Source of the DNA: Cytophagales bacterium
Lineage (GTDB): Bacteria > Bacteroidota > Bacteroidia > Cytophagales > Spirosomataceae
Length of the DNA stretch: 64,000 bases
Direction: 5' to 3'
Assembly (NCBI GenBank): GCA_024742395.1
Contig: JANSYO010000003.1
Location: forward strand, 62,001-126,000
Below are positions 1 to 12,100 of the stretch, in pieces; the stretch's first letter is position 1; each line of letters opens with the position of its first letter. The position numbers and the translations under genes are program-made. The notes under the pieces were generated by a model. The model saw only the letters and a program-made list of their open reading frames with translations, did not search any database and was not told where the DNA came from.

Positions 1-2092
1 TTGCAAAACCTCCGGCAGGCAGTAAGTACTCCCATACTTTTTTGCCGGTTTTAATATCATAAGCTTTCAATTTTTCATCGTAAGAGGCTCCTATAAAAAG
101 TAGTCCGCCTGCGGTGACCACGGGGCCACCATGATTCTCACTTCCTGTCACTAAGCCTTTGGCTTTCAGCTCTTCAAACTCACCTAAAGGCACCTGCCAT
201 ACGTACTCTCCGGTATTCATATCAATAGCATTGAGAGTACCCCATAGAGGCTGCAGTGCAGGATATCCCTCGTGGTCGAGAAACTGATTATTTCCGCTAT
301 TCATGTAAGGTGCAACGTAAGGAAACAAAGCCCCTTCTTCTGCAGTGACCTCAACCCTCTTGTGTACATCAAAAACCTCCTCTTTCTTTTCGCCTTCCTT
401 CTCAATAAGAAATTTCACAATGGCTTCCCGGTCTCTATCTTTGATATGCTGAAATGAGGGCATTCTTCCGCGACCAGATTCCAGTAGACTTAAGATTTCA
501 GATTCATTCATTCTTTCGCCTACTTTATTTAGATTCGGATAGGCCTGATTTGCGGTCATGTCTGCATCACGAGAATGGCACATTGCACAGTTCTGATTGA
601 ATAAACGCTCGCCTCTGGGCAATCTTTGTTCTGTACTTCCGGCTTCCAGCTTCTTCATTTCCAGCCACCAAAGCATATTATTCCCGTTGACATAAAAAAT
701 GCCGTTGGGATCTGCAGCGGCTCCTCCCCACTCGGCTCCTCCACCAAAACCGTAATACAAGGTTCCTTTTTCGCTTGGTGGAAGATATTTGTGACCATGA
801 TTGCTATTTCTGAATCGTTGCAGAGCAAATTCATGTGCCTCAGGCGTCCGCGTGGTTAGATCCTTCTCTTCCAAGGTTTGACGGGCAAAAGGCTTCGGTT
901 TGGTAGGAACAGGCTGAGTAGGCCAAGGCACTTCTCCGGGCAAAGCAGGCTCTGTGGGAACAGCCACTTCTTCTACCGGAAATAAAGGTACTCCGGTATC
1001 CCTATCAAAAAGAAAAACAAAGCCGTCTTTGGTAGCCTGTGCTACAGCATCAACTTTTTTACCCTCATGGTTTACGGTCATTAAAGTAGGCGGACAAGGA
1101 ATGTCTTTATCCCATAAATCATGATGGACCGTCTGAAAATGCCAGACTCTTTCCCCCGTTTCCGCATTCAATGATATAACGCAATTGGCAAATAAGTTTT
1201 GACCGGGACGTGCTCCTCCATAGAAATCTACAGAGGGTGAGCCGGTTCCTAAAAATACCCGGCCTCGTTCCTGATCGACTACCATACCCGCCCAGCAATT
1301 GGCCGCACCCAATTTTTTATACGAATCTTCGGCCCAAGTATCATAACCGAACTCACCGGGCAGCGGTATGGTATGGAAAACCCATGCCAGATCTCCCGTT
1401 TTTACGTTGTAAGCTCTTATGTATCCCGGCAGGGCATTGCCTCCCTCTGAGAGCGAAGAACCCATAATAATCAGGTCTTTATAAATCACTCCCGGTGATG
1501 TGGAACGAATACCGTACTGATAGACATCGTAGCCCAGAGTTTCTTCATCTCCCAGCCCAATATGCAGGTCTACTTTTCCATCCTCTCCAAAACTCTTTAT
1601 GAGTTTGCCTGTGCCTGCATCAATGGCCAAAAGGTAAGGTCCTATACTGTATAACAATCGCCGATCTTTTCCCTTTGACCAATAGACCACTCCCCGAATT
1701 GCATGATACTGTGGTCTTAAATCAGAATCTTCATAAGGATCAAACTGCCATTTATGTTCTCCGCTAAAAGCATCTATCGCAAAGAGTTTTTGCCTTGAAG
1801 TGGTACCATACAGAATGCCGTCAATCATTATGGGCTGACACTGATTGGTCATGGGTCTTTCAGCATCTACCTCTTCACCGGTATCATATTCCCAGGCTAC
1901 TTGCAGCTGACTAACATTCTCCAGATTTATGTCATTCAGTTCTGAATAACGTGTTCCGCCACTATCTCCACCGTAATAAGCCCAGTTTGTGATATCAGAA
2001 ATATCAGAGGTCTTACAACTGGATATTATCCCCAGAAATATCCCGACGAGGAGTATTGAAAACCAATAAGACTGTGATCTAGGCACACCCAT
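1..2092 (-). CDS. PQQ-dependent dehydrogenase with inserted cytochrome c domain (3' end cut by window)
   Basis: About 697 residues are visible; the C-terminus runs off the left edge. The reading frame starts at the ATG at 2092, one base after the stop of the preceding gene, and opens with a lipoprotein signal (lipobox ISSC near residue 29). Repeated propeller blades with WEYDTG, WQFDP and WVFHT-type tryptophan motifs mark a quinoprotein beta-propeller. A cytochrome c heme motif CAMCH lies near residues 502-506 with a later MPSF that could supply the Met ligand. This family oxidises sugars or alcohols in the periplasm and passes electrons through its own heme. The substrate cannot be read; the neighbouring dehydratases suggest an aldose. 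Last gene of the LacI-headed group. Confidence 0.9.
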   Translation of the reverse strand, partial: MGVPRSQSYWFSILLVGIFLGIISSCKTSDISDITNWAYYGGDSGGTRYSELNDINLENVSQLQVAWEYDTGEEVDAERPMTNQCQPIMIDGILYGTTSRQKLFAIDAFSGEHKWQFDPYEDSDLRPQYHAIRGVVYWSKGKDRRLLYSIGPYLLAIDAGTGKLIKSFGEDGKVDLHIGLGDEETLGYDVYQYGIRSTSPGVIYKDLIIMGSSLSEGGNALPGYIRAYNVKTGDLAWVFHTIPLPGEFGYDTWAEDSYKKLGAANCWAGMVVDQERGRVFLGTGSPSVDFYGGARPGQNLFANCVISLNAETGERVWHFQTVHHDLWDKDIPCPPTLMTVNHEGKKVDAVAQATKDGFVFLFDRDTGVPLFPVEEVAVPTEPALPGEVPWPTQPVPTKPKPFARQTLEEKDLTTRTPEAHEFALQRFRNSNHGHKYLPPSEKGTLYYGFGGGAEWGGAAADPNGIFYVNGNNMLWWLEMKKLEAGSTEQRLPRGERLFNQNCAMCHSRDADMTANQAYPNLNKVGERMNESEILSLLESGRGRMPSFQHIKDRDREAIVKFLIEKEGEKKEEVFDVHKRVEVTAEEGALFPYVAPYMNSGNNQFLDHEGYPALQPLWGTLNAIDMNTGEYVWQVPLGEFEELKAKGLVTGSENHGGPVVTAGGLLFIGASYDEKLKAYDIKTGKKVWEYLLPAGGFA

Positions 2093-2093
2093 T

Positions 2094-3059
2094 TTATTGC
2101 TTTTTACTTTTGAATTCATAATTGATAGACCACTGCAATGTTTGACCAGGGGCTACACTAATATTGATATATGGCTCAGGACATGAGGTAGTGGCACAAG
2201 CCCAATAAACCATTTTCTCCACCGGCATGGCCGAACTGATATGTACACCTGCTCCCGTTTTCGTATTCTCTATGTTCAGATCATACTTTGTAGCCGACTT
2301 TTCTTCAGCCATTAAATCTGCAGAGAATACGGTTTCCTTATTCTGCACCTCTCTGTTGTAGATGATAGACTGACCTTTTATCTCGGCAATAGAACCAAAG
2401 CCATGACCATCTGCTTTTGGGATAAAAGAAAAAGAAGTTTTGATATTTTGGTTTGTTGGCTCTGAATCAAACATGAAGAAATTATGATTGTAGGCACTTG
2501 TGGCTATCGGTTTCTTACCGGTATTTTTTAATGAGTACTTGAGCGTCAATACGGAGGTACCCTCTTCCAAAACCAATTCCTTTTTATATAGGTAGGCATA
2601 GCCACTCTCCGTACTCAGTTTTTGTGAGTAAACTGCCTTATTCTTTTTTACTTTTGATTTCCTTTTACCGTAATCAGCAATTTCATAGGTCTTAAATCTG
2701 GAAAAGGACTCTTCTTCTTGTTTGCGTAATGCTCCTACCCCCACTCGTATGAAATTCTCACCCACAGGTACTTCGTCATAGCCTATAACCATGTACTCAT
2801 CTACCGGCCCGGTGATGGCGTCATGTAAACCGTATTCAGAGCGGGGATTCCACACACCAAAATACTCGTGGTCATTAAATTCCAGAGAATTAATTACACC
2901 AGCCCAGTCAAAACGGGTGCCCTGATAATAACCAGACTGAGGCTCGGGGGAATAAATAGTGGCTTTTATTAAGCCATTGCTAATGGAGTCTTCGGGGTAG
3001 GTCTGCGAAAAACAAGACATACTGATAGCAAGGACAAAGAGTGTAGCCCAAATTTTCAT
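2094..3059 (-). CDS. Secreted galactose-mutarotase-fold protein (hypothetical aldose epimerase-like)
   Basis: A 321-residue protein with a Sec signal (cleavage near residue 19, CFS-QT). The rest is predominantly beta strand. The order of motifs (GTRFDWAG near the start, GLHDAI, then YNHNFFMFD around residue 195) resembles the galactose mutarotase-like fold used by aldose 1-epimerases, though the family cannot be confirmed by eye. If correct it would interconvert sugar anomers in the periplasm, useful beside an anomer-specific PQQ dehydrogenase encoded one base downstream. It sits 32 bases after the enolase-superfamily gene in the same direction, so co-transcription is likely. Confidence 0.6.
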   Translation of the reverse strand: MKIWATLFVLAISMSCFSQTYPEDSISNGLIKATIYSPEPQSGYYQGTRFDWAGVINSLEFNDHEYFGVWNPRSEYGLHDAITGPVDEYMVIGYDEVPVGENFIRVGVGALRKQEEESFSRFKTYEIADYGKRKSKVKKNKAVYSQKLSTESGYAYLYKKELVLEEGTSVLTLKYSLKNTGKKPIATSAYNHNFFMFDSEPTNQNIKTSFSFIPKADGHGFGSIAEIKGQSIIYNREVQNKETVFSADLMAEEKSATKYDLNIENTKTGAGVHISSAMPVEKMVYWACATTSCPEPYINISVAPGQTLQWSINYEFKSKKQ

Positions 3060-3091
3060 GATGAACGTGTTTAATTTCTAATTCCAAATGA

Positions 3092-4339
3092 TTACCAACC
3101 ATGAATAGCTCCATCGGGGCTTTTCAGGTAAGGGTGAGGATACTTGGTCGGCTCTGTTATCTCCATAATAAAGTCGGCCTTCTTAGGGTTAAATTTCACT
3201 CCCAGACCCGGCTCAGGATTTAAATACAGCTTACCATTTTTAAATAAAATATAGTCTTCATTGAAATAAGCAGGTCTTTCCGGTTCACCTCCTGCCAGCT
3301 CCATCATACAACGGGACGGACTACTGGAACCCAACACATGAACTAATGATGCCGTAGATAATGGCCCGGTAAAATGCGGAATTAAACCCGTATAATGCGT
3401 TTCTGACAGTGCCGCAATTTTCTTTAACTCTGTAAGACCTCCAGTATTTGGCAAAGTAACCCGGGCATAATCTAATAGCCTGCCTTCTATTAACTCATTG
3501 ATATCCCATTTATCGCCAAATTGCTCTCCTACAGCTAAGGGAACATTGGTCATGGCTCTTACCTGTTTATATACATCTGTATTCTCACTTCGAATCACAT
3601 CTTCTACAAAATAGGGTTGGAGTTCTTCCAGTGCATTGCAAATCTTCACCCCGTCTATTAAGTCGAAACGTGTATGTATATCTATGGCCCAATTCCCCTG
3701 ACCGCCTACGGCTGCATCTATTCTTCTGCAGTGTTCAATCGTTTTTTGAACATTTTGGTAGAAATCAAAGGGAACATTAGGATCACTGCCACCTGTAGGA
3801 CCAATCCTGTAACAACGCAAACCTGCTTTCAGGCAATCCTCTGCCCGGCCTTCTTCAGTGGTAGCTTTAGAATTTCTAAAACCCGTAGCATAACACTCTA
3901 CATAGTCTCTGGTGGCACCGCCCATTAATTCATACACAGGCACGCCCAAAGCTTTTCCCTTGATATCCCAAAGTGCCATTTCAAGAGCTCCCAGAGCGTG
4001 AAGCTTCTCTCTGCCGGGCGGATAAAACATGGTTCGGTACATGTATTGCCAAAGGTGCTCTATTCTGAACGGATCTTCCCCAATAATCATTTGAGCACAT
4101 TGCTCAATCATGTCTTTGCTTCCGCCTTCTCCTATTCCTATGATACCGCCGTCTGTTTCTATCTCAACAATTCCACGGGCCTGATTAAACAATGGTTTTG
4201 TATAACCAGGAGCAGCGTAATACCGAATCTTTTTTATCCTTAGCGAAGAGGTTGCGGTATTGGCCAAACCGGTTTTCAAACCAAGCATCAAAGCACCACT
4301 TCCGAGTGCCATGTTTCTTAAAAATTTTCTTCTTTCCAT
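3092..4339 (-). CDS. Enolase-superfamily acid-sugar dehydratase (MR/MLE type) with twin-arginine signal
   Basis: 415 residues. The N-terminus has a twin-arginine signal (ERRKFLRNM followed by a hydrophobic stretch, residues 2-27), so export of the folded enzyme is expected. The mature part is a mandelate racemase/muconate lactonizing enzyme: capping domain to about residue 140, then the barrel. Metal ligands read as D220 (in DIHTRF, D-x-H with H222), E246 (FVEDV) and E272 (GEQF), with H322 as a likely catalytic base. The D-x-H pattern is that of galactonate/mannonate-type dehydratases. Substrate unknown. Second gene after lacI, 40 bases downstream. A periplasmic location is unusual for this family. 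Confidence 0.85.
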   Translation of the reverse strand: MERRKFLRNMALGSGALMLGLKTGLANTATSSLRIKKIRYYAAPGYTKPLFNQARGIVEIETDGGIIGIGEGGSKDMIEQCAQMIIGEDPFRIEHLWQYMYRTMFYPPGREKLHALGALEMALWDIKGKALGVPVYELMGGATRDYVECYATGFRNSKATTEEGRAEDCLKAGLRCYRIGPTGGSDPNVPFDFYQNVQKTIEHCRRIDAAVGGQGNWAIDIHTRFDLIDGVKICNALEELQPYFVEDVIRSENTDVYKQVRAMTNVPLAVGEQFGDKWDINELIEGRLLDYARVTLPNTGGLTELKKIAALSETHYTGLIPHFTGPLSTASLVHVLGSSSPSRCMMELAGGEPERPAYFNEDYILFKNGKLYLNPEPGLGVKFNPKKADFIMEITEPTKYPHPYLKSPDGAIHGW

Positions 4340-4379
4340 TTCAATAGGGTTGAATCGAGCTTTTCTTCGCTCTTGTTAT

Positions 4380-5408
4380 TTATTTCTTCATTTCAGAAGA
4401 CTTTTGCTCAATAAGCCTTGCCTTCATTAAGACTTGAGTTAATGGCGTTTCTTTGTTCTTCACTTTTGCCAGCAGTACTTCTACTGCTTTGGTGCCCAAA
4501 TCTTCTAATGGCTGCAGCATATAGGTAATTGGGCAATAATAGAGTTCAAAGATTTCTGCTTGTCCAAAACTTACTACCGCAAAATCATCAGGCACTTTTA
4601 ATTGCAATTCATTTATGTACCTCAGACCGTTTATTGCCAAACCATACGTAGCAAAAATGAGGGCCTCAGGTTTGTCTTCCATTTTTAAGAAGTCATCTAT
4701 GGCATAAGCTACTTCTTGCTGTAAATTCTCAAACTCCACCTCCACAAGCCATTGAGGATTCAGTGCGATCTGATTCTCTTTCATCGCCTCCTGGTATCCT
4801 GTGATACGCTCTTTCATATGCTGCATATCTAAGCGATAAGCAATGAGACCAATCTTCCTGTAGCCATTGTCTATCAAATGCTTACAGGCATCAAATGAAG
4901 CCGTAAAGTTATCTGTAGCTACAAAATCAGTGTTTAACTCCGGAAAATGCCTGTCTAATAAAACAAACGGTATATTCCTTTCTCTTAAATGGGCAATCTG
5001 CTCTTCTGAATGCTCAGATGCCACTATAATAAAACCATCTACCTGCCTGTTTATTAATACATTTATCAGATCCCAGGCTTTCTCAGCTTTTTCATCGCAA
5101 CTCCCTATAATTACTGTATATCCTTTTCTTCTGGCTTCATCTTCTACCACTCTGGCTATATTGGCGAAAAAAGGGTTAGAGATATCGGCTATCACTAATC
5201 CTATGGTTTTGGTGCTGCCACTTCTCAAACTCTTCGCTACCTGATTGGGCTGATAGTTTAACTTTTTAGCTATCTCCCTGATCTTGGCCGCTATTTCCTT
5301 GCCCACTCTTTTTTCCTTTTCATTGCCATTTATGACATATGAAACCAAAGCCGTAGAAACACCTGCTTCTTTAGCTATATCTTTTATTGAAACCCTTTTT
5401 GAACTCAT
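4380..5408 (-). CDS. LacI-family transcriptional regulator
   Basis: 342 residues, the standard LacI length. Helix-turn-helix at residues 4-24 (IKDIAKEAGVSTALVSYVIN), hinge helix around 50-62, then a periplasmic-binding-protein-like sugar-sensing core from about residue 65 (IGLVIADISNPFFANIA). It heads the group lacI, dehydratase, mutarotase-like, PQQ dehydrogenase. A TTAAACGATTAA operator candidate lies 61 bases upstream and recurs twice before susC, so it probably represses both itself and the susCD operon, being released by a sugar or sugar-acid ligand. The inducer is not readable. Confidence 0.93.
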   Translation of the reverse strand: MSSKRVSIKDIAKEAGVSTALVSYVINGNEKEKRVGKEIAAKIREIAKKLNYQPNQVAKSLRSGSTKTIGLVIADISNPFFANIARVVEDEARRKGYTVIIGSCDEKAEKAWDLINVLINRQVDGFIIVASEHSEEQIAHLRERNIPFVLLDRHFPELNTDFVATDNFTASFDACKHLIDNGYRKIGLIAYRLDMQHMKERITGYQEAMKENQIALNPQWLVEVEFENLQQEVAYAIDDFLKMEDKPEALIFATYGLAINGLRYINELQLKVPDDFAVVSFGQAEIFELYYCPITYMLQPLEDLGTKAVEVLLAKVKNKETPLTQVLMKARLIEQKSSEMKK

Positions 5409-5468
5409 TGGGTAAACTTAAATATTGCACCCTAGCAAAAAAACAATTTTTTAATAAAAAACGCATAT

Positions 5469-5480
5469 TTAATCGTTTAA
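5469..5480. promoter_or_regulatory. Candidate LacI-type operator upstream of lacI
   Basis: The 12-mer reads TTAATCGTTTAA on the plus strand, TTAAACGATTAA on the strand of lacI. It has the central CG and near-dyad symmetry usual in LacI-family operators. The same 12-mer occurs at 11929-11940 and 12084-12095 in front of susC and nowhere else I could find. Regulation by the adjacent LacI protein is inferred. Confidence 0.7.
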
Positions 5481-5690
5481 ACATACACATTCGATATCAA
5501 AATATGCCATTATAGTACATCCTTACACACAGATTCAGGATTAAAAAAGTATCATAACATGAAGCTTTGAATACTTTCTTGAGAAGACAGAGTGGTAAAG
5601 TGGAGCCGTTCTCCACCTTTACCATCTGTACTTAACTTAACCTAAACCATTCACCTAATTCTTCAATTTTTATCTCGAGTTCTTTTCAAA

Positions 5691-7052
5691 CTATGGCCTT
5701 AAAATAGTTCCATCGGCCTTTCTAACCTGCCAGTTTGATTTGGTAGTAATCGGGTATTTGGCTGCCTCTTTTTCGTTGATGTCTACGCCAAGACCCGGAG
5801 CTTCATTAACAGACATATAGCCATTATTCATCGTAGGGCAACCTGTAAAAACTTCTTTCATCTGATCGCTGAAAGAAACCGCTTCCTGAATTCCGAAATT
5901 CCAGATAGCCATATCTATGTGGGCATGGGCGGCATGACCTACCGGAGACACATCACCCGGCCCATGCCAGGCAGTGCGTATATTGAACCACTCCCCTAAC
6001 CTTGCCACTTTCATAGCTGGTGTAATTCCACCTATTTGAGACACATGAATTCTGATAAAATCAAACCATTGGTTTACCATAGGTTCTACAAATTCATTGA
6101 TGTTATTAAAGAGCTCTCCCATTGCCAAAGGCACTGTAGTGCTGGCTCTTAGCTGTTTAAACCATTTCATGTTTTCGGGTGAAAACGGATCTTCGATAAA
6201 GAAAGGTCGGTATTCTTCCAGTTGCTTAATCATATTTATGGCATCTATGGGAGCTACCCGCTCATGTATATCATGCAGGAGTTCTACCTCCTCGCCACAA
6301 GCCTTTCGTACTGTCTCAAACATTTTCGGAACCGATTTGAGATAGTATTGCTGATTCATGAAATTATCCGTCTCTCCACCAAAACCCGCAGCTTTAAAAT
6401 CAGGAACCTGATCTGTAGAACCTACCGCTCCGTAACCGCCCTGTTGAATTCTAATATGCTTAAACCCTTGCTCCTGATACTTCTTTACACTTTCCACCAC
6501 CTCTTCCGGGCTTCTGCCACTGGCATGTGTATAGCACGGAATAGCAAATCTTGACTTGCCTCCTAAAAGCTGATACACAGGCATTCCGGCTCTTTTTCCT
6601 TTTATATCCCATAAGGCCTGGTCCAGGCCACTAAGAGCATTGTTTAAGACAGGACCGTTTCTCCAATAAGAACTTACATAGGCCGCCTGCCACATGTCTT
6701 CAATATTGTCGACATCCTTACCCATGCAGAAATCATTTAAATAGCTATTGATTGCAGCTACAACAGCCACAGCTCTCTGTGTAAAAGTAGCACAACCCAA
6801 GCCATAAAGACCCGGCTCAGAAGTCTCTACTTTTACTACAATAAGATTTGATCTTTGGGGTGCAGTGGCTATAGCCTTAACACCGGTAATAGTTACTTTT
6901 GAAAGCCCTTTCATGTAGGCAGGCGTTTCTTTATCTCGGGAGGCGGCTGAGGCGGTTCCGCCAAAAAAACTTAATAATCCTGCTGAGCCCAGACCTAGTT
7001 TTTTGAGGGTATCTCTTCTGCTTTGGTCTGAATTTTCTTTTCTTGTTTTCAT
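5691..7052 (-). CDS. Mannonate/altronate dehydratase-like enolase-superfamily protein (ManD/RspA type) with Tat signal
   Basis: 453 residues. A twin-arginine signal (SRRDTLKKLG, residues 11-20, then a hydrophobic run to AASA near 37) precedes a ManD/RspA-like enzyme. Metal and catalytic residues appear as D261, H263, E287, E313 and H363; the spacing matches the ManD set (D210, H212, E236, E262, H313) shifted by about 50 residues, the length of the N-terminal extension. The C-terminal HGPGDVSPVGHAAH block is typical of the subgroup. It probably dehydrates a hexonate-type sugar acid to a 2-keto-3-deoxy acid, in the periplasm if the signal works. It follows susD by 95 bases, with an inverted repeat between them. 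Confidence 0.87.
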   Translation of the reverse strand: MKTRKENSDQSRRDTLKKLGLGSAGLLSFFGGTASAASRDKETPAYMKGLSKVTITGVKAIATAPQRSNLIVVKVETSEPGLYGLGCATFTQRAVAVVAAINSYLNDFCMGKDVDNIEDMWQAAYVSSYWRNGPVLNNALSGLDQALWDIKGKRAGMPVYQLLGGKSRFAIPCYTHASGRSPEEVVESVKKYQEQGFKHIRIQQGGYGAVGSTDQVPDFKAAGFGGETDNFMNQQYYLKSVPKMFETVRKACGEEVELLHDIHERVAPIDAINMIKQLEEYRPFFIEDPFSPENMKWFKQLRASTTVPLAMGELFNNINEFVEPMVNQWFDFIRIHVSQIGGITPAMKVARLGEWFNIRTAWHGPGDVSPVGHAAHAHIDMAIWNFGIQEAVSFSDQMKEVFTGCPTMNNGYMSVNEAPGLGVDINEKEAAKYPITTKSNWQVRKADGTILRP

Positions 7053-7085
7053 TATGATTAGTTTAAATTGTTAGAATAGGGTGAG

Positions 7086-7134
7086 GTTAATGGCCTCTGT
7101 ATTCTCCTTTTAAAAAAAATTAAAGGCCATTAAC
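7086..7134. repeat. Inverted repeat between susD and the ManD-like gene
   Basis: Perfect 11-base arms GTTAATGGCCT (7086-7096) and AGGCCATTAAC (7124-7134) flank a 27-base loop. On the transcribed (minus) strand the loop holds a T-run and an AAGGAG that could be a ribosome binding site ahead of the start at 7052. It may be an attenuator, an mRNA-stabilising stem after susD, or a weak terminator. Confidence 0.55.
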
Positions 7135-7147
7135 TTAAGTTACTGAT

Positions 7148-8692
7148 TTACTTTTTATCCCACCAAACTCTGGTTTCTAAATCATTAGGTCCCTGTCTGG
7201 CAATGGCCTCATTCATGTTCGCAGAATTCACCACAATCTCACCATCAGGATAAGGTAACCTTCTGATGAAATCTTCTGTTTTCAGCTCAGAACCCGGGTA
7301 TGGATTTTTCTGAAGTGCAGGAAATCCACTTCTTCTGAAATTGGCAAACGTCTCATTGCCGTCAAGGAAACTAGACACCCAGTACTGCGTATTGATTTGC
7401 TCAAATCCCTTTGACGGGTCAAAGTTCTGTGAAGCGAGGTACGTCGAAATCTGATCTTCTGAGAGTGCGGCCTTTTCATCATAGTAGGCCATTTGTTCCA
7501 GATTAGCTCTTATTCCGTTTTTGTAATATTCGGCGGCATCGCCTGCAATCCAGCCCCTAAGAGCTGCCTCTGCCAGAAGCAATTGCGTTTGAGAATAGGT
7601 AACATGAAACTCCGGAGCATCCAGCTTAAGAACTGTGCTCAGATTGGCCTGGGTGTAATCCCATAAACTGGCCACACCTGTAGTAGCAAAAGTACTGGCA
7701 ATTGATACGTCATTGTAGCCCATTGGCATCCCTATTTGATCTTCCGGAGCAGAAGAGGCTCTGGAAGCTACTTGCTCAGGACCACCCTTTGCCCCAACAT
7801 ATCGAACGGCAAAAATCGGCAAACGCGGATCATTATTATTCTTCAGATAATTCACAAAAGGCTCTGTCAGATAAAAATTAGTTTTCTCTCTGGCAGTAAG
7901 ATGATTAGCTATATAATTATTATAGATAGACGTATGTCTTATGATAGAGTTATCAGCGTTAGATTCTATCAAGCCTCCAGCTACTGCTTTCTTTACGAAA
8001 GTTTGAGCCGTAGCAGGATCCACTTTAGACAGTCGCATAGCCGCCCGTAGCATTAAAGAGTATCCCAGCTTTTTCCAGTTACCTACATTACCACCATAAA
8101 GAATATCAGTAGTTACTGGAGCTTCGCCCGCATTCAGAGCAGCTGTGGCCTCTTCGAGCTCTTTCAGGATATCTTTATAAATCACCTCCTGGCTATCATA
8201 CTTAGGAGCTATCACCTCATCAATAAAACCTTTGCCTGCTTCGAAATATGGAATGTCACCATAGGTATCTGTTAAGATCATGAATGTATAGGCTTTCCAG
8301 ATTCGGGCCGACTGGTATGTGTTGTTCTGCATTGGATCATCTTTTGTCTGATCTACCACAGCCACTATTTGCTTTACCACATTTCGGTAGAAGTTATTCC
8401 AAAGGCTGGCTGCATTGTTATTATTGAGCTGATTGTAATTCCCTCCTGAAAGTGAGCTTCCGTAAGGGGTGATGATCTGCTGAACAATTCCAAAATGGTA
8501 ACAAAGCATACCTAGGGTGCTACCGCCATTTAAATAAGTTGTACTAATTATAGCCTTATTTAAAATTAGGGATGGAGCTAAGGATGTAGGATCTACCTTA
8601 TTGGTATTGAGTTCGTCAAATCCTTTATCGCAGGCAGGTAAAATGCCCATGAAGAGCAGTAATACTAGAGTTAATTTTATATGTAGTCTCAT
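7148..8692 (-). CDS. SusD/RagB-family nutrient-binding lipoprotein (SusD-like_2 type)
   Basis: 514 residues with a lipoprotein signal (lipobox LPAC, Cys21). Immediately after comes FDELNTNKVDPTSLAP, the signature start of the SusD-like_2 branch, followed by the helical TPR-like body. SusD proteins sit on the cell surface and lid the partner SusC transporter, binding glycan. It starts 11 bases after susC, so translation is coupled in one operon, which continues into the ManD-like gene. The bound ligand is not predictable; the downstream sugar-acid dehydratases suggest an oligosaccharide or uronate/aldonate-yielding glycan. Confidence 0.93.
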   Translation of the reverse strand: MRLHIKLTLVLLLFMGILPACDKGFDELNTNKVDPTSLAPSLILNKAIISTTYLNGGSTLGMLCYHFGIVQQIITPYGSSLSGGNYNQLNNNNAASLWNNFYRNVVKQIVAVVDQTKDDPMQNNTYQSARIWKAYTFMILTDTYGDIPYFEAGKGFIDEVIAPKYDSQEVIYKDILKELEEATAALNAGEAPVTTDILYGGNVGNWKKLGYSLMLRAAMRLSKVDPATAQTFVKKAVAGGLIESNADNSIIRHTSIYNNYIANHLTAREKTNFYLTEPFVNYLKNNNDPRLPIFAVRYVGAKGGPEQVASRASSAPEDQIGMPMGYNDVSIASTFATTGVASLWDYTQANLSTVLKLDAPEFHVTYSQTQLLLAEAALRGWIAGDAAEYYKNGIRANLEQMAYYDEKAALSEDQISTYLASQNFDPSKGFEQINTQYWVSSFLDGNETFANFRRSGFPALQKNPYPGSELKTEDFIRRLPYPDGEIVVNSANMNEAIARQGPNDLETRVWWDKK

Positions 8693-8703
8693 TTTCTTCA
8701 GAA

Positions 8704-11700
8704 TTAAAATTTGAAATTAAGATTGAAGCCAATGCTTCTTGTTGGTGGCAATCCCGGCCAGAAATCAAGGCCGGTATTGTTATCAGAAGACACCAATACT
8801 TCTTCCGGATCCATGTTCTCTGTCCATTTCTTAATTATCAGGACATTGTTTGCCACTGCACTAAGTTTTAGTCCTTTTACAAAACCATTTTGTGGAAATA
8901 CGTGTCTGAAATCATAGCTAAGCGTAACCTGACGAAGTTTCCAAAATCCGGCATTTTGAACAAAATCTTCATTAATGCCGAGTGGATTAATAGACTCATA
9001 GAAAGGCTGTACGGCTACTTGCTTGGTGTTGATTTCACCGTTTTCGTTCACACCGTCTCCTACTACATATCCTACATCTCTACCAGGTAATGTCCTTTTA
9101 GATAAGCCATGTCTTACATAGTTGATGTTTCGGCCGGCTATCAGTTTGTGACCCAGTTTGAAATCGACAAGTGTAAAGAGTTGAATGTTCTTGTACGTGA
9201 AGGTATTGGTAATACCTCCAAAGTATTTAGGCAAGGCATTGCCCACATTACGAAGGGTATTGTCTCTCAGCGGCATTCCGCTTTTAGAGTCAAAAACCTG
9301 ACGACCCTGGTCATCACGGAGATACATAAACGTATACAATTGACCAATTGGCTTACCTACCACCTGATTGAGGGTTCTTCCGCCGCCGCCACCTACGGTG
9401 ATGATGGTGTCATTCTCAGACAAACCTAATTTTAAGACTTCAGAGGTATTGTATGAAGCATTGGCACTAAAGTCCCAGCTAAAGGCTCCTTTCTTAATAG
9501 GCGAGAATGAAACCATTGCCTCAATACCCTCATTCTTACTTTGACCTACGTTAATTAACTTACTTGTGTAAGATGTAGCATCTGAAATCTGGGCTGCCAG
9601 AATCTGATCTTCTGTAATTTTATGGTAGTAAGTGAAGTCTAAGCCTACTTTGTTTTCAATGATCTTCATTTCAATACCAAACTCAGCTTCTTTTACTCTA
9701 AGTGGTCTCAGGTTTTTATTTGGAACCACGGAAGCATTTACCCCACCAATAGGCACCAATTGGCCGCTTGGATTAGGAAAGGAGTTATTATCAACTGCAT
9801 AATAAAGAGCATTAGAGTATGGGGCCACATTATCTGAACCCACCTGAGCATAGGCTGCACGCAACTTCCCGAAATTCAACCAGTTTGGCATATTATCGAA
9901 GGCCTGCGAGAAGACAAAACTACCTGTTGCCGAAGGGTATAGTATGCTTCTGTTGGCAGGTGCCAATGTCGAGAACCAATCGTTTCTGGCGGTTAAGCCC
10001 AGGTATAAGAACTCTTTATACGAAATGGTAGTAGCTCCAAAAAGCGAGTTGATTTTCTTCTCTGAGAGAGCATAAAGAGGATCTTTAATTCTTCCGTTCA
10101 TTACAGTGTAAAGCCCTGGCTGAACAAAGTCTTGTACTGTCACACTGTTGTAATCATTTCTGGCATAACGCTGATTCCCCCCAAGGGTTAGGTCAATGCC
10201 AATATTTCCAAATGTGCGGTTGGCCCCTAAAATTAAATCAAGGTTTCTCTCGGTATTGGTACGAACATCCTGAGTGAAAGATCCATTAACATAGCCTGTT
10301 GGGGCTTTAGGAATAGGAGCATAACCGTTTGGAATGTTGTAATCCTGGTTTCTTACGTAGAAATCTTCTGCCAGACGTCCTTGCAAATACAGCCAGTCAG
10401 TAAACTGATATTTCAAAGCCACATTACCGAATAGTCTGTTTCTGTTAATGTTTTCAAACTTATGGCTCATACTGTAATAAGGGTTATTACGAACCAGAAA
10501 ACGTGAGAATACAAACTCATCTCCATTGGGGTGAGTAGTGTTATTTTGCAAAGCTTCAAAAGGCATTGAGTTGGCCAATGTAAATATTACCGTAGAAACA
10601 GCCACATCCTGGGTATTCACCTGCGGAGGGTTTATATTATTCTCTAAAGAGTAATTGATATTCCCTGTGGCTGTAAGTTTATCAGTAATGTTTTGGGTAA
10701 AGCCAAGGTTAATCACCTTCTTATCATACTCGTTGTTCGGCATGATTCCCTTATTAGCGGCGTTTGAAAGAGATAAACTAAAGCCACCTTTTTCACCGCT
10801 GTTTGACACCGTAATGGTATTGGTAAGGTTAGTACCCACCCGGTAAAACTTCTTTACTCTGTCATATACCGGCTCATATGGATACTCCTCATTATCAAAA
10901 AGTATCTGGGTCATCCCTGGTTCAAATTTCTCTCCGAAACTCCACACACCAGAAGTAGGATTTGCGGTAGTAGGTCTTTTACCCCCTTCTCCCTGACCGT
11001 ATTCATATTGAAAATCGGTAAAATCAAGAGGGGTGTCTGTTGTAAAGTTCATATTGTAGGCCACTCCGAATCCTTTGCCACTCCCTTTGGTTTTTGTGGT
11101 AATCATCACCACACCGTCTTTTGCACGTGAACCGTAAAGAGCAGCTGCAGTGGCTCCTTTCAGTACAGTCATTGATTCCACATCATCGGGATTTATGCTG
11201 GAAAGCCCATCTCCACCGTCAGAGCTATTGCTTGATCTGCTGCCAAAATCGCCACCAAGAGAATAATTTGAATTATCAACAGGCACTCCATTGATGATAA
11301 TCAGCGGGTTATTCTGACCACTGAAAGATGATTGGCCTCTGATTCTTATTTTGGCTGTTCCTCCGGGACCTGTTCCCATGGTGGTAATATTCACGCCAGA
11401 CATTTTACCTTGCAAGCCACTCATTACATTGGGCGATCTATTGGTAGAAATCTGCTCTTCATTTACAGAAGCGGTGGCATATCCCAGTGTCTTGGCTTCA
11501 CGCTCAATACCCAGTGCCGTTACTACCACCTCAGAAAGACTGGTTTCTTCTTCCTGCATAGTCACATTGATAATTGATCTGCCATTCACTGCTACACTTT
11601 GCGGAATAAAACCGATGAAAGAGAATTTTAAGGTACTTTTTGACGGAACAGAAAGGCTATATTTTCCGTCTACGTCTGTCATAGTTCCTGTGGTAGAGCC

Positions 11701-11835
11701 TTCTACCAGTACGCTTACGCCGGGCATTCCTCCGTCGGCATTAGAAACCTGCCCCGTCACCTGAATGCTTTGAGCATTGGACGTTTGCCAAATACTCAGC
11801 AAAAGAGCCAAATAAAAGAGTACATTTTTTTTCAT
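8704..11835 (-). CDS. SusC/RagA-family TonB-dependent transporter
   Basis: 1043 residues, normal SusC size. Order: Sec signal (1-21), carboxypeptidase-regulatory-like domain (about 25-95), SLSEVVVTALG linker, plug domain with the SusC markers MSGLQGKMSGV, IRGQSSFSG and VLKGATAAALYGSRAKDGV, then a C-terminal 22-strand barrel ending in Phe. It imports glycan fragments across the outer membrane with its SusD partner, using TonB energy. First gene of its operon; a promoter-like pair of boxes with a LacI operator in the spacer lies about 240 bases upstream. Confidence 0.96.
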   Translation of the reverse strand: MKKNVLFYLALLLSIWQTSNAQSIQVTGQVSNADGGMPGVSVLVEGSTTGTMTDVDGKYSLSVPSKSTLKFSFIGFIPQSVAVNGRSIINVTMQEEETSLSEVVVTALGIEREAKTLGYATASVNEEQISTNRSPNVMSGLQGKMSGVNITTMGTGPGGTAKIRIRGQSSFSGQNNPLIIINGVPVDNSNYSLGGDFGSRSSNSSDGGDGLSSINPDDVESMTVLKGATAAALYGSRAKDGVVMITTKTKGSGKGFGVAYNMNFTTDTPLDFTDFQYEYGQGEGGKRPTTANPTSGVWSFGEKFEPGMTQILFDNEEYPYEPVYDRVKKFYRVGTNLTNTITVSNSGEKGGFSLSLSNAANKGIMPNNEYDKKVINLGFTQNITDKLTATGNINYSLENNINPPQVNTQDVAVSTVIFTLANSMPFEALQNNTTHPNGDEFVFSRFLVRNNPYYSMSHKFENINRNRLFGNVALKYQFTDWLYLQGRLAEDFYVRNQDYNIPNGYAPIPKAPTGYVNGSFTQDVRTNTERNLDLILGANRTFGNIGIDLTLGGNQRYARNDYNSVTVQDFVQPGLYTVMNGRIKDPLYALSEKKINSLFGATTISYKEFLYLGLTARNDWFSTLAPANRSILYPSATGSFVFSQAFDNMPNWLNFGKLRAAYAQVGSDNVAPYSNALYYAVDNNSFPNPSGQLVPIGGVNASVVPNKNLRPLRVKEAEFGIEMKIIENKVGLDFTYYHKITEDQILAAQISDATSYTSKLINVGQSKNEGIEAMVSFSPIKKGAFSWDFSANASYNTSEVLKLGLSENDTIITVGGGGGRTLNQVVGKPIGQLYTFMYLRDDQGRQVFDSKSGMPLRDNTLRNVGNALPKYFGGITNTFTYKNIQLFTLVDFKLGHKLIAGRNINYVRHGLSKRTLPGRDVGYVVGDGVNENGEINTKQVAVQPFYESINPLGINEDFVQNAGFWKLRQVTLSYDFRHVFPQNGFVKGLKLSAVANNVLIIKKWTENMDPEEVLVSSDNNTGLDFWPGLPPTRSIGFNLNFKF

Positions 11836-11918: not shown

Positions 11919-11950
11919 GCCGTTTTGCTTAAACGATTAAGCAAAACGGC
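11919..11950. promoter_or_regulatory. Extended palindromic operator in the susC leader
   Basis: Perfect 13-base arms GCCGTTTTGCTTA (11919-11931) and TAAGCAAAACGGC (11938-11950) are separated by six bases. The centre contains the 12-mer TTAAACGATTAA (11929-11940) shared with the lacI promoter. It lies about 85 bases upstream of the susC start and downstream of the predicted promoter, so bound LacI could block elongation; in RNA it would also form a strong stem. Confidence 0.7.
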
Positions 11951-12072: not shown

Positions 12073-12100
12073 CAAAAGTATGCTTAAACGATTAAACAAA
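12073..12100 (-). promoter_or_regulatory. susC promoter with operator in the spacer
   Basis: On the minus strand TTTG (12100-12097) and TACTTTTG (12080-12073) match the Bacteroidota -33 TTTG and -7 TAnnTTTG boxes, with a 16-base spacer, slightly shorter than usual. The spacer contains the LacI-type 12-mer TTAAACGATTAA (12084-12095 on the plus strand). A repressor there would occlude RNA polymerase. Start-site position is predicted, not shown. Confidence 0.6.

Follow-up and report, generated by a model that had tools for sequence, protein, structure and literature searches.

A Spirosomataceae gene cluster predicted to oxidize and dehydrate galactose-type sugars outside the inner membrane

Enolase-superfamily acid-sugar dehydratases are generally regarded as cytoplasmic, and the gene cluster considered here raises the question of whether some Bacteroidota place this step of sugar breakdown on the other side of the inner membrane. 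The cluster opens a 64,000-nucleotide stretch of a Spirosomataceae genome (Cytophagales bacterium, contig JANSYO010000003.1, our C325:62001-126000), hereafter the window, and brings together a pyrroloquinoline quinone (PQQ)-dependent dehydrogenase, dehydratases with twin-arginine (RR) signals, a SusCD pair, and a LacI-family regulator. A sequence-only reading of the window had proposed that such a set could oxidize an aldose to its acid and dehydrate it before import. The seven genes that it had named are all found at positions 1-11835 on the minus strand, with the families that it had given them, and the PQQ enzyme, the mutarotase-like protein, the dehydratases, SusCD, and LacI do lie together, but the set runs on beyond the window edge, as can be seen from the features of the whole gene run (C and L numbers are our identifiers for contigs and loci):

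2 to 2119, continuing past the window edge to C325:61888, minus strand: PQQ-dependent dehydrogenase with a c-type cytochrome segment (743 aa whole)
2094 to 3059, minus strand: secreted 321-aa protein with a galactose-mutarotase fold (predicted structure)
3092 to 4339, minus strand: EnoA, enolase-superfamily acid-sugar dehydratase with an RR signal (family models)
4380 to 5408, minus strand: LacI-family regulator (family models)
5691 to 7052, minus strand: ManD-subgroup enolase-superfamily dehydratase with an RR signal (family models)
7148 to 8692, minus strand: SusD-like_2 lipoprotein (family model)
8704 to 11835, minus strand: SusC TonB-dependent transporter (TIGR04056, 610 bits, cut-off 368)
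C325:60855-61856, same strand, left flank: PF05035 kinase (profile match)
C325:60190-60858, same strand, left flank: aldolase of the 2-keto-3-deoxy-6-phosphogluconate (KDPG)/2-keto-4-hydroxyglutarate (KHG) type (profile match)
C325:58908-60200, same strand, left flank: DgoT-like permease of the major facilitator superfamily (MFS) (profile match)
C325:57599-58858, same strand, left flank: third enolase-superfamily dehydratase, DgoD-type, with an RR signal (NF010624)
C325:56652-57542, same strand, end of the gene run: lipoprotein resembling fumarylacetoacetate hydrolase (FAH)/2-keto acid hydratases (profile match)

The gaps between these genes, flank included, range from -26 to 95 bp, with the exception of the 282 bp between manD and lacI. 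The third dehydratase reaches 442 bits on NF010624, the D-galactonate dehydratase equivalog (cut-off 311), and because it lies over this curated cut-off, the cluster can be described as a gene run of the dgo type that holds additional parts. From sequence comparison, we consider it likely that the operon encodes an oxidative pathway of the De Ley-Doudoroff/Entner-Doudoroff type whose first two steps take place outside the inner membrane, and some Bacteroidota would more generally seem to run the first two steps of galactose-type breakdown there. In the pathway that we propose, an aldose (most likely D-galactose, possibly glucose or mannose too) or its glycoside would enter through SusCD, the mutarotase-fold protein would maintain the anomer that is needed, and the aldose would be oxidized to the lactone or aldonate by the PQQ/cytochrome c lipoprotein. 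Three dehydratases exported by twin-arginine translocation (Tat) would then turn periplasmic aldonates into 2-keto-3-deoxy acids, the DgoD-type enzyme presumably acting on galactonate, the ManD-type enzyme on gluconate/mannonate, and EnoA on a further aldonate, and only the small keto acid would probably need uptake. The MFS permease would bring the 2-keto-3-deoxy acids into the cytoplasm, where the kinase and the aldolase would produce pyruvate and glyceraldehyde-3-phosphate, and LacI, bound at operators upstream of susC, would govern the set.

The case for export begins with the N-termini of the cluster's proteins. Orthologs were counted in 80 related loci (L010-L089), a sample that is not neutral, since its members were picked for their resemblance to the ManD-like protein of the window; these loci end at 10 kb or at the contig end, so orthologs were counted within at most 10 kb. 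For signals, identity floors were set at 60% for the dehydratases and 30-50% for the other proteins, and open reading frames (ORFs) at locus edges were left out. By a rule that looks for RR among the N-terminal 75 residues and, after it, an uncharged hydrophobic stretch of 13 residues, an RR-plus-hydrophobic N-terminus is found in all of the 82 ManD-like (two loci carry two each), 33 EnoA, and 24 DgoD orthologs, that is 139 out of 139, and in none of the 15 kinases, 12 aldolases, and 25 LacI orthologs. Set against a background of 31 positives among 511 other gene-like ORFs of the related loci, the signals of both window dehydratases, which the sequence-only reading had noticed, are beyond chance. 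The rule has at least one false negative, L136, where an RR signal is visible by eye. Against its best solved relative, the ManD-like protein aligns only from residue 45 onward and the DgoD-like protein only from residue 52, and the genome encodes TatC in a single copy (PF00902, 224.9 bits). As for the PQQ enzyme, a hydrophobic N-terminus is present in 50 of 53 orthologs and the RR-plus-hydrophobic type in only 2 of them; heme c proteins use Sec, so few RR signals are expected here. This distribution of signals speaks against dehydration in the cytoplasm.

RR signals were also seen on enolase-superfamily proteins outside this operon. In this genome, the enolase C-terminal family is matched 12 times, and among the eight of these loci that were covered, a signal is present in L003, L007, L004, and L008, the last two being those of this cluster, and absent from L001, L002, L005, and L006. 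Besides L003 and L007 (on C13 and C343 of the same genome), signalled members occur in L122-L125, L129, L138, and, by eye, L136. On sequence grounds, export of the enolase superfamily may be broader than a single pathway and recur in other Bacteroidota.

A further line of evidence comes from the galactonate dehydratases of the phylum. In the 296 Bacteroidota genomes searched, 16 proteins from 12 genomes pass the DgoD cut-off; 13 of them are unsignalled and have no PQQ dehydrogenase gene in the surrounding stretch, whereas the three signalled ones, among them the one described here and all of them from the same family as the window, have a PQQ gene nearby. The best DgoD in each of nine genomes begins at the mature position, signal-free, as do four more in two of those genomes. 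Searches by blastp with the cluster's proteins over 19-kb stretches gave no PQQ gene, no mutarotase-fold gene, and no best match to the ManD-like or EnoA proteins in the nine unsignalled loci, and neither a PQQ nor a mutarotase-fold gene lies within the 12-19 kb surrounding the four others. Kinase and/or aldolase relatives are present in seven of the nine loci, a GntP permease in five (L142-L146), and an SMP-30-type gene in four (L140, L142, L143, and L145), the Pfam check of the latter two families bearing on genes chosen by eye in 6 of the 9 loci. MFS-like genes at 27-28% identity to the cluster's permease are found in L139 and L147, and no recognised permease in L140 and L141; L139 also carries a second enolase-superfamily gene, 25% identical and likewise unsignalled. 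By contrast, the signalled loci L148 and L149 contain PQQ, mutarotase-fold, LacI, SusCD, and kinase genes together with three RR-signalled dehydratases. The export signal thus goes hand in hand with the PQQ enzyme and, in the loci checked for it, with a different permease, in genomes that are not independent observations. In a tree of 64 rows, for which 12 ManD and 10 EnoA orthologs were sampled at random in addition to the window's own, the 27 rows of signalled DgoD make up a single clade (support 100/100) to which the nine unsignalled DgoD are sister (97/94), on a joint branch supported at 95/92; the long branches between the larger groups call for caution.

Are the enzymes intact and of the right kind? 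When the three dehydratases are aligned to solved structures (3t6c, 3thu, and 3rr1), the Asp/Glu/Glu residues, which we take to be metal ligands, and the His residues, which we take to be catalytic, are invariant in 82/82 ManD-like, 33/33 EnoA, and 24/24 DgoD rows. By its sequence, the ManD-like protein (closest solved structures 3t6c, 4ihc, and 3tw9) is a subgroup relative of D-mannonate dehydratase that does not reach the equivalog cut-offs (409.8 vs. 550 on NF043051; 400.6 vs. 430 on NF011654), and EnoA is divergent, with 3thu as its best solved match. In the PQQ protein, LGIISSC resembles a lipobox and a single heme motif, CAMCH, is present; the heme motif is kept in 51 of 53 orthologs, and Asp 334 (HHDLWD) and Lys 364 (QATK), presumably catalytic, are kept in all 53. 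Its best NCBIfam model is the glucose/quinate/shikimate PQQ family TIGR03074, on which the 706 aa inside the window score 415.6 bits, below the cut-off of 832.65. According to the alignments, its c-type cytochrome segment (around residues 500-574) sits between parts of the PQQ propeller, whereas the heme domain of solved quinohemoprotein alcohol dehydrogenases is C-terminal; four genes for PQQ dehydrogenases were counted in the genome. The term mutarotase-like, used for the neighboring 321-aa protein in the sequence-only reading, holds for the fold and not for a sequence family: the predicted structure (predicted local distance difference test, 91.5) matches 3k25 (Z 18.6) and GalM 4bze (Z 17.8, 250 residues, root-mean-square deviation 4.2), but no Pfam family is matched at E<=1. 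Since the YidC periplasmic domain (Foldseek ranks 8-12) and parts of several phosphorylases share this fold, and since Foldseek template modelling scores to mutarotases are only about 0.55, the fold alone is no proof of epimerase activity.

The cytoplasmic half of the pathway adjoins these genes. The kinase scores 188 bits on PF05035 (cut-off 25) and matches no NCBIfam model at E<=0.001; the aldolase is over the cut-off of TIGR01182 (163.7 vs. 156.05) and under that of NF006600 (141.3 vs. 207), which is specific for 2-keto-3-deoxy-6-phosphogalactonate; and the best model of the MFS permease is the D-galactonate transporter (237.1, below the cut-off of 395). An extracellular action on keto-deoxy acids is conceivable for the FAH-like lipoprotein, which is shared with L010; it recurs in 1 of the 80 related loci and was left out of the pathway.

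The gene set that the sequence-only reading had suggested looking for in other Bacteroidota is found there, the ManD-like, EnoA, and PQQ genes occurring together with a kinase, aldolase, or MFS gene in 16 of the 80 loci. Close orthologs of the PQQ enzyme were counted in 53 loci, of the mutarotase-fold protein in 34, of EnoA in 33, of LacI in 25, of DgoD in 24, of the kinase in 16, of the MFS permease in 15, and of the aldolase in 13. De novo clustering of the other ORFs of these loci gave 12 clusters present in at least five loci, none of which covers the loci with the full set.

A common control of the set by LacI, also part of the sequence-only reading, is supported by a palindrome that was first found upstream of the relatives' cluster genes and then refined to CTTAATCGATTAAG. 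Two copies stand upstream of susC in the window:

11928 to 11941, no strand assigned: predicted LacI operator, 1 mismatch to CTTAATCGATTAAG, 92 bp above the susC start
12083 to 12096, no strand assigned: second predicted LacI operator, 2 mismatches to CTTAATCGATTAAG, 247 bp above the susC start

In the window, 4 of 100 shuffled palindromes reach two matches. With up to 2 mismatches, the 25 loci with a LacI ortholog (527 kb) contain 49 matches and the 55 loci without one (1020 kb) contain 9, some of which sit upstream of manD, mfs, enoA, or susC; the motif was derived from the same loci, so these counts are not independent of it. The 49 matches are spread over 24 of the 25 LacI loci (L038 is the sole locus without a site), all at most 617 bp upstream of susC, lacI, enoA, enoC, or manD, and in the first six of these loci the real palindrome has 14 matches when 26 shuffled palindromes have 0-3. 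From this co-occurrence, we infer that the LacI ortholog binds the predicted operator, the direction of its control being likewise inferred. Unlike its relatives, the locus itself (L093) has no operator upstream of lacI or enoA. The only exact matches in the genome are the window's susC site and C198:23090, in a stretch that is phage-like by eye, and exact searches in eight relatives' genomes gave matches in two, inside known clusters. No further regulon members are put forward for the same genome, the count at up to 1 mismatch (9) not exceeding the control (10), and one such site with a single mismatch, some 60 bp ahead of a sulfatase gene (L107), was taken as chance.

Signals on the dehydratases and not on the kinases and aldolases, the co-occurrence of signalled DgoD and PQQ genes, the adjoining cytoplasmic half, and the shared operator together support extracytoplasmic oxidation and dehydration, against which several observations have to be weighed. 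The RR rule is home-made and not a trained predictor, and an AxA cleavage site, present in 72/82 ManD-like and 23/33 EnoA orthologs, is found in only 5/24 DgoD. None of the eight genes from C325:56652 to window position 4339, the only stretch searched for this purpose, matches a lactonase model, and neither EnoA nor the ManD-like protein, the two dehydratases within the window, reaches an equivalog cut-off among NCBIfam models. Because the products formed from galactonate and from gluconate have different stereochemistry, a single kinase may not be able to handle them all. In 27 of the 80 loci there is no PQQ gene in the surrounding stretch, and in 30 others the PQQ and ManD-like genes come without EnoA, DgoD, kinase, aldolase, or MFS (e.g. 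L017 and L069), a second arrangement that perhaps serves another sugar. The best PqqE match in the genome reaches 58.7 bits for a cut-off of 381; PqqC was found in none of the 61 genomes of the family, this one included, a search that proves nothing as its control also matched nowhere. Since PQQ biosynthesis genes were reported to be lacking from 206 Bacteroidota with the importer PqqU as well (PMC12124388), PQQ is likely scavenged and not self-made.

Other objections come with a rival layout, in which the PQQ enzyme would make the aldonate outside, the DgoT-like MFS permease would import it, and the dehydratases would work in the cytoplasm, provided that the RR stretch does not export or that internal starts give a cytoplasmic form. 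The permease is the most vulnerable part of our proposal: its closest solved relative is the D-galactonate transporter 6e9n, so the undehydrated aldonate may be what is imported. In addition, in-frame starts after the signal are frequent (ATG in 52/82 ManD, 9/33 EnoA, and 0/24 DgoD; ATG, GTG, or TTG in 73/82, 19/33, and 19/24), which makes a second, cytoplasmic form of the dehydratases possible. Likewise, Pseudomonas putida equipped with dgoKAD grows on galactose according to PMC6927180, cytoplasmic dehydration being an assumption there. However, this layout has to accommodate RR signals in all counted orthologs of the three enzymes and in no kinase or aldolase, the 13 DgoD of the same phylum that do without a signal, five of them beside GntP permeases, and the lack of any in-frame ATG after the signal in the 24 DgoD (the 19 starts being GTG or TTG), and we regard it as unlikely. 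It is also conceivable, with a probability that we put quite low, that the exported dehydratases act on other acids (uronates, oligosaccharide aldonic acids, or plant-derived acids taken up via SusCD), that the substrate of the PQQ enzyme is an alcohol or polyol, and that the dgo genes are a common end. The missing substrate-level matches of the window dehydratases would fit this view, as would a SusD type that does not identify the glycan and the 5 of 21 loci with a kinase, aldolase, or MFS gene but no PQQ gene nearby (L047, L051, L053, L060, and L084), which possibly use ready-made aldonates. Against it stand a DgoD equivalog within the same gene run, a mutarotase fold adjoining the PQQ enzyme, and a score of the latter on the glucose/quinate/shikimate model that is to be compared with 212.4 bits, below cut-off, on the methanol/ethanol model.

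If extracytoplasmic dehydration is retained, we somewhat incline toward viewing the system as a periplasmic funnel, in which three exported dehydratases that differ in specificity, acting on aldonates made on the spot with scavenged PQQ, would lead many sugars to one permease, one kinase, and one aldolase. With the same slight preference, this funnel would be the extracytoplasmic De Ley-Doudoroff pathway of Spirosomataceae and their relatives, evolved by the addition of an export signal to dehydratases. Were the dehydratases exported, a central sugar route would be divided across the membrane at a new place, with electrons going straight to the respiratory chain, several sugars converging ahead of import, and a dependence on the PQQ of neighbors; a keto-deoxy acid permease is then predicted among proteins whose family currently carries the annotation of galactonate transporters.

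Neither the pathway nor its parts are new; the novelty would lie in where the dehydration step is placed. Like the dgo pathway (DgoD, DgoK, DgoA, and DgoT), the run combines a DgoD equivalog, a kinase of the 2-keto-3-deoxygalactonate type, a KDPG-type aldolase, and a DgoT-like MFS permease, but only here are there a Tat-type signal on the dehydratase, two more signalled dehydratases, a PQQ/cytochrome c enzyme, SusCD, and a mutarotase-fold protein. Gcd-type periplasmic glucose oxidation likewise relies on a PQQ enzyme outside the cytoplasm, of the family that gives the best NCBIfam model here; Gcd has membrane helices at its N-terminus, whereas the present enzyme is below cut-off, with a lipoprotein-type N-terminus and a cytochrome c segment in the propeller, and its acid is apparently dehydrated before import. 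The periplasmic quinate/shikimate route, with its PQQ quinate dehydrogenase and periplasmic dehydratases, also places a dehydration after PQQ oxidation, both outside the inner membrane, with other dehydratase families and other substrates. Periplasmic oxidation of some sugars followed by transport as acids is mentioned in PMC12076931. Sugar is similarly oxidized in the periplasm ahead of uptake in the 3-ketolactose pathway of Caulobacter, which has relatives in Pedobacter (PMC9007349) and uses a LacABC dehydrogenase and a DUF1080 hydrolase, but no dehydratase; the same source indicates that automated reconstruction by GapMind may disregard compartment. An experimental secretome table from Picrophilus torridus includes the D-gluconate/D-galactonate dehydratase PTO0485, a sugar-acid dehydratase reported outside the cell, in this case of an archaeon and with no pathway proposed in the portion available (PMC8345856); as its neighbors in the table include malate dehydrogenase and a proteasome subunit, it may have leaked from cells. 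In the open literature, which was the scope of our search and leaves subscription papers aside, no proposal of exported sugar-acid dehydratases as a pathway was found, a result that is weak evidence of novelty.

Elsewhere in the window, the gene at window:30065-31441 encodes a membrane protein that combines DUF2231 with a cytochrome c domain of the planctomycete type, and it adjoins a GDSL lipase gene. An alpha-L-fucosidase and three sulfatases are encoded at window:32249-45940, and a further SusCD-like pair and a sulfatase-like gene, identified by eye, lie in the left-flank locus (L009:7194-13550); together, the fucosidase, the sulfatases, and the extra SusCD-like pair hint at the use of sulfated fucose-containing glycans.

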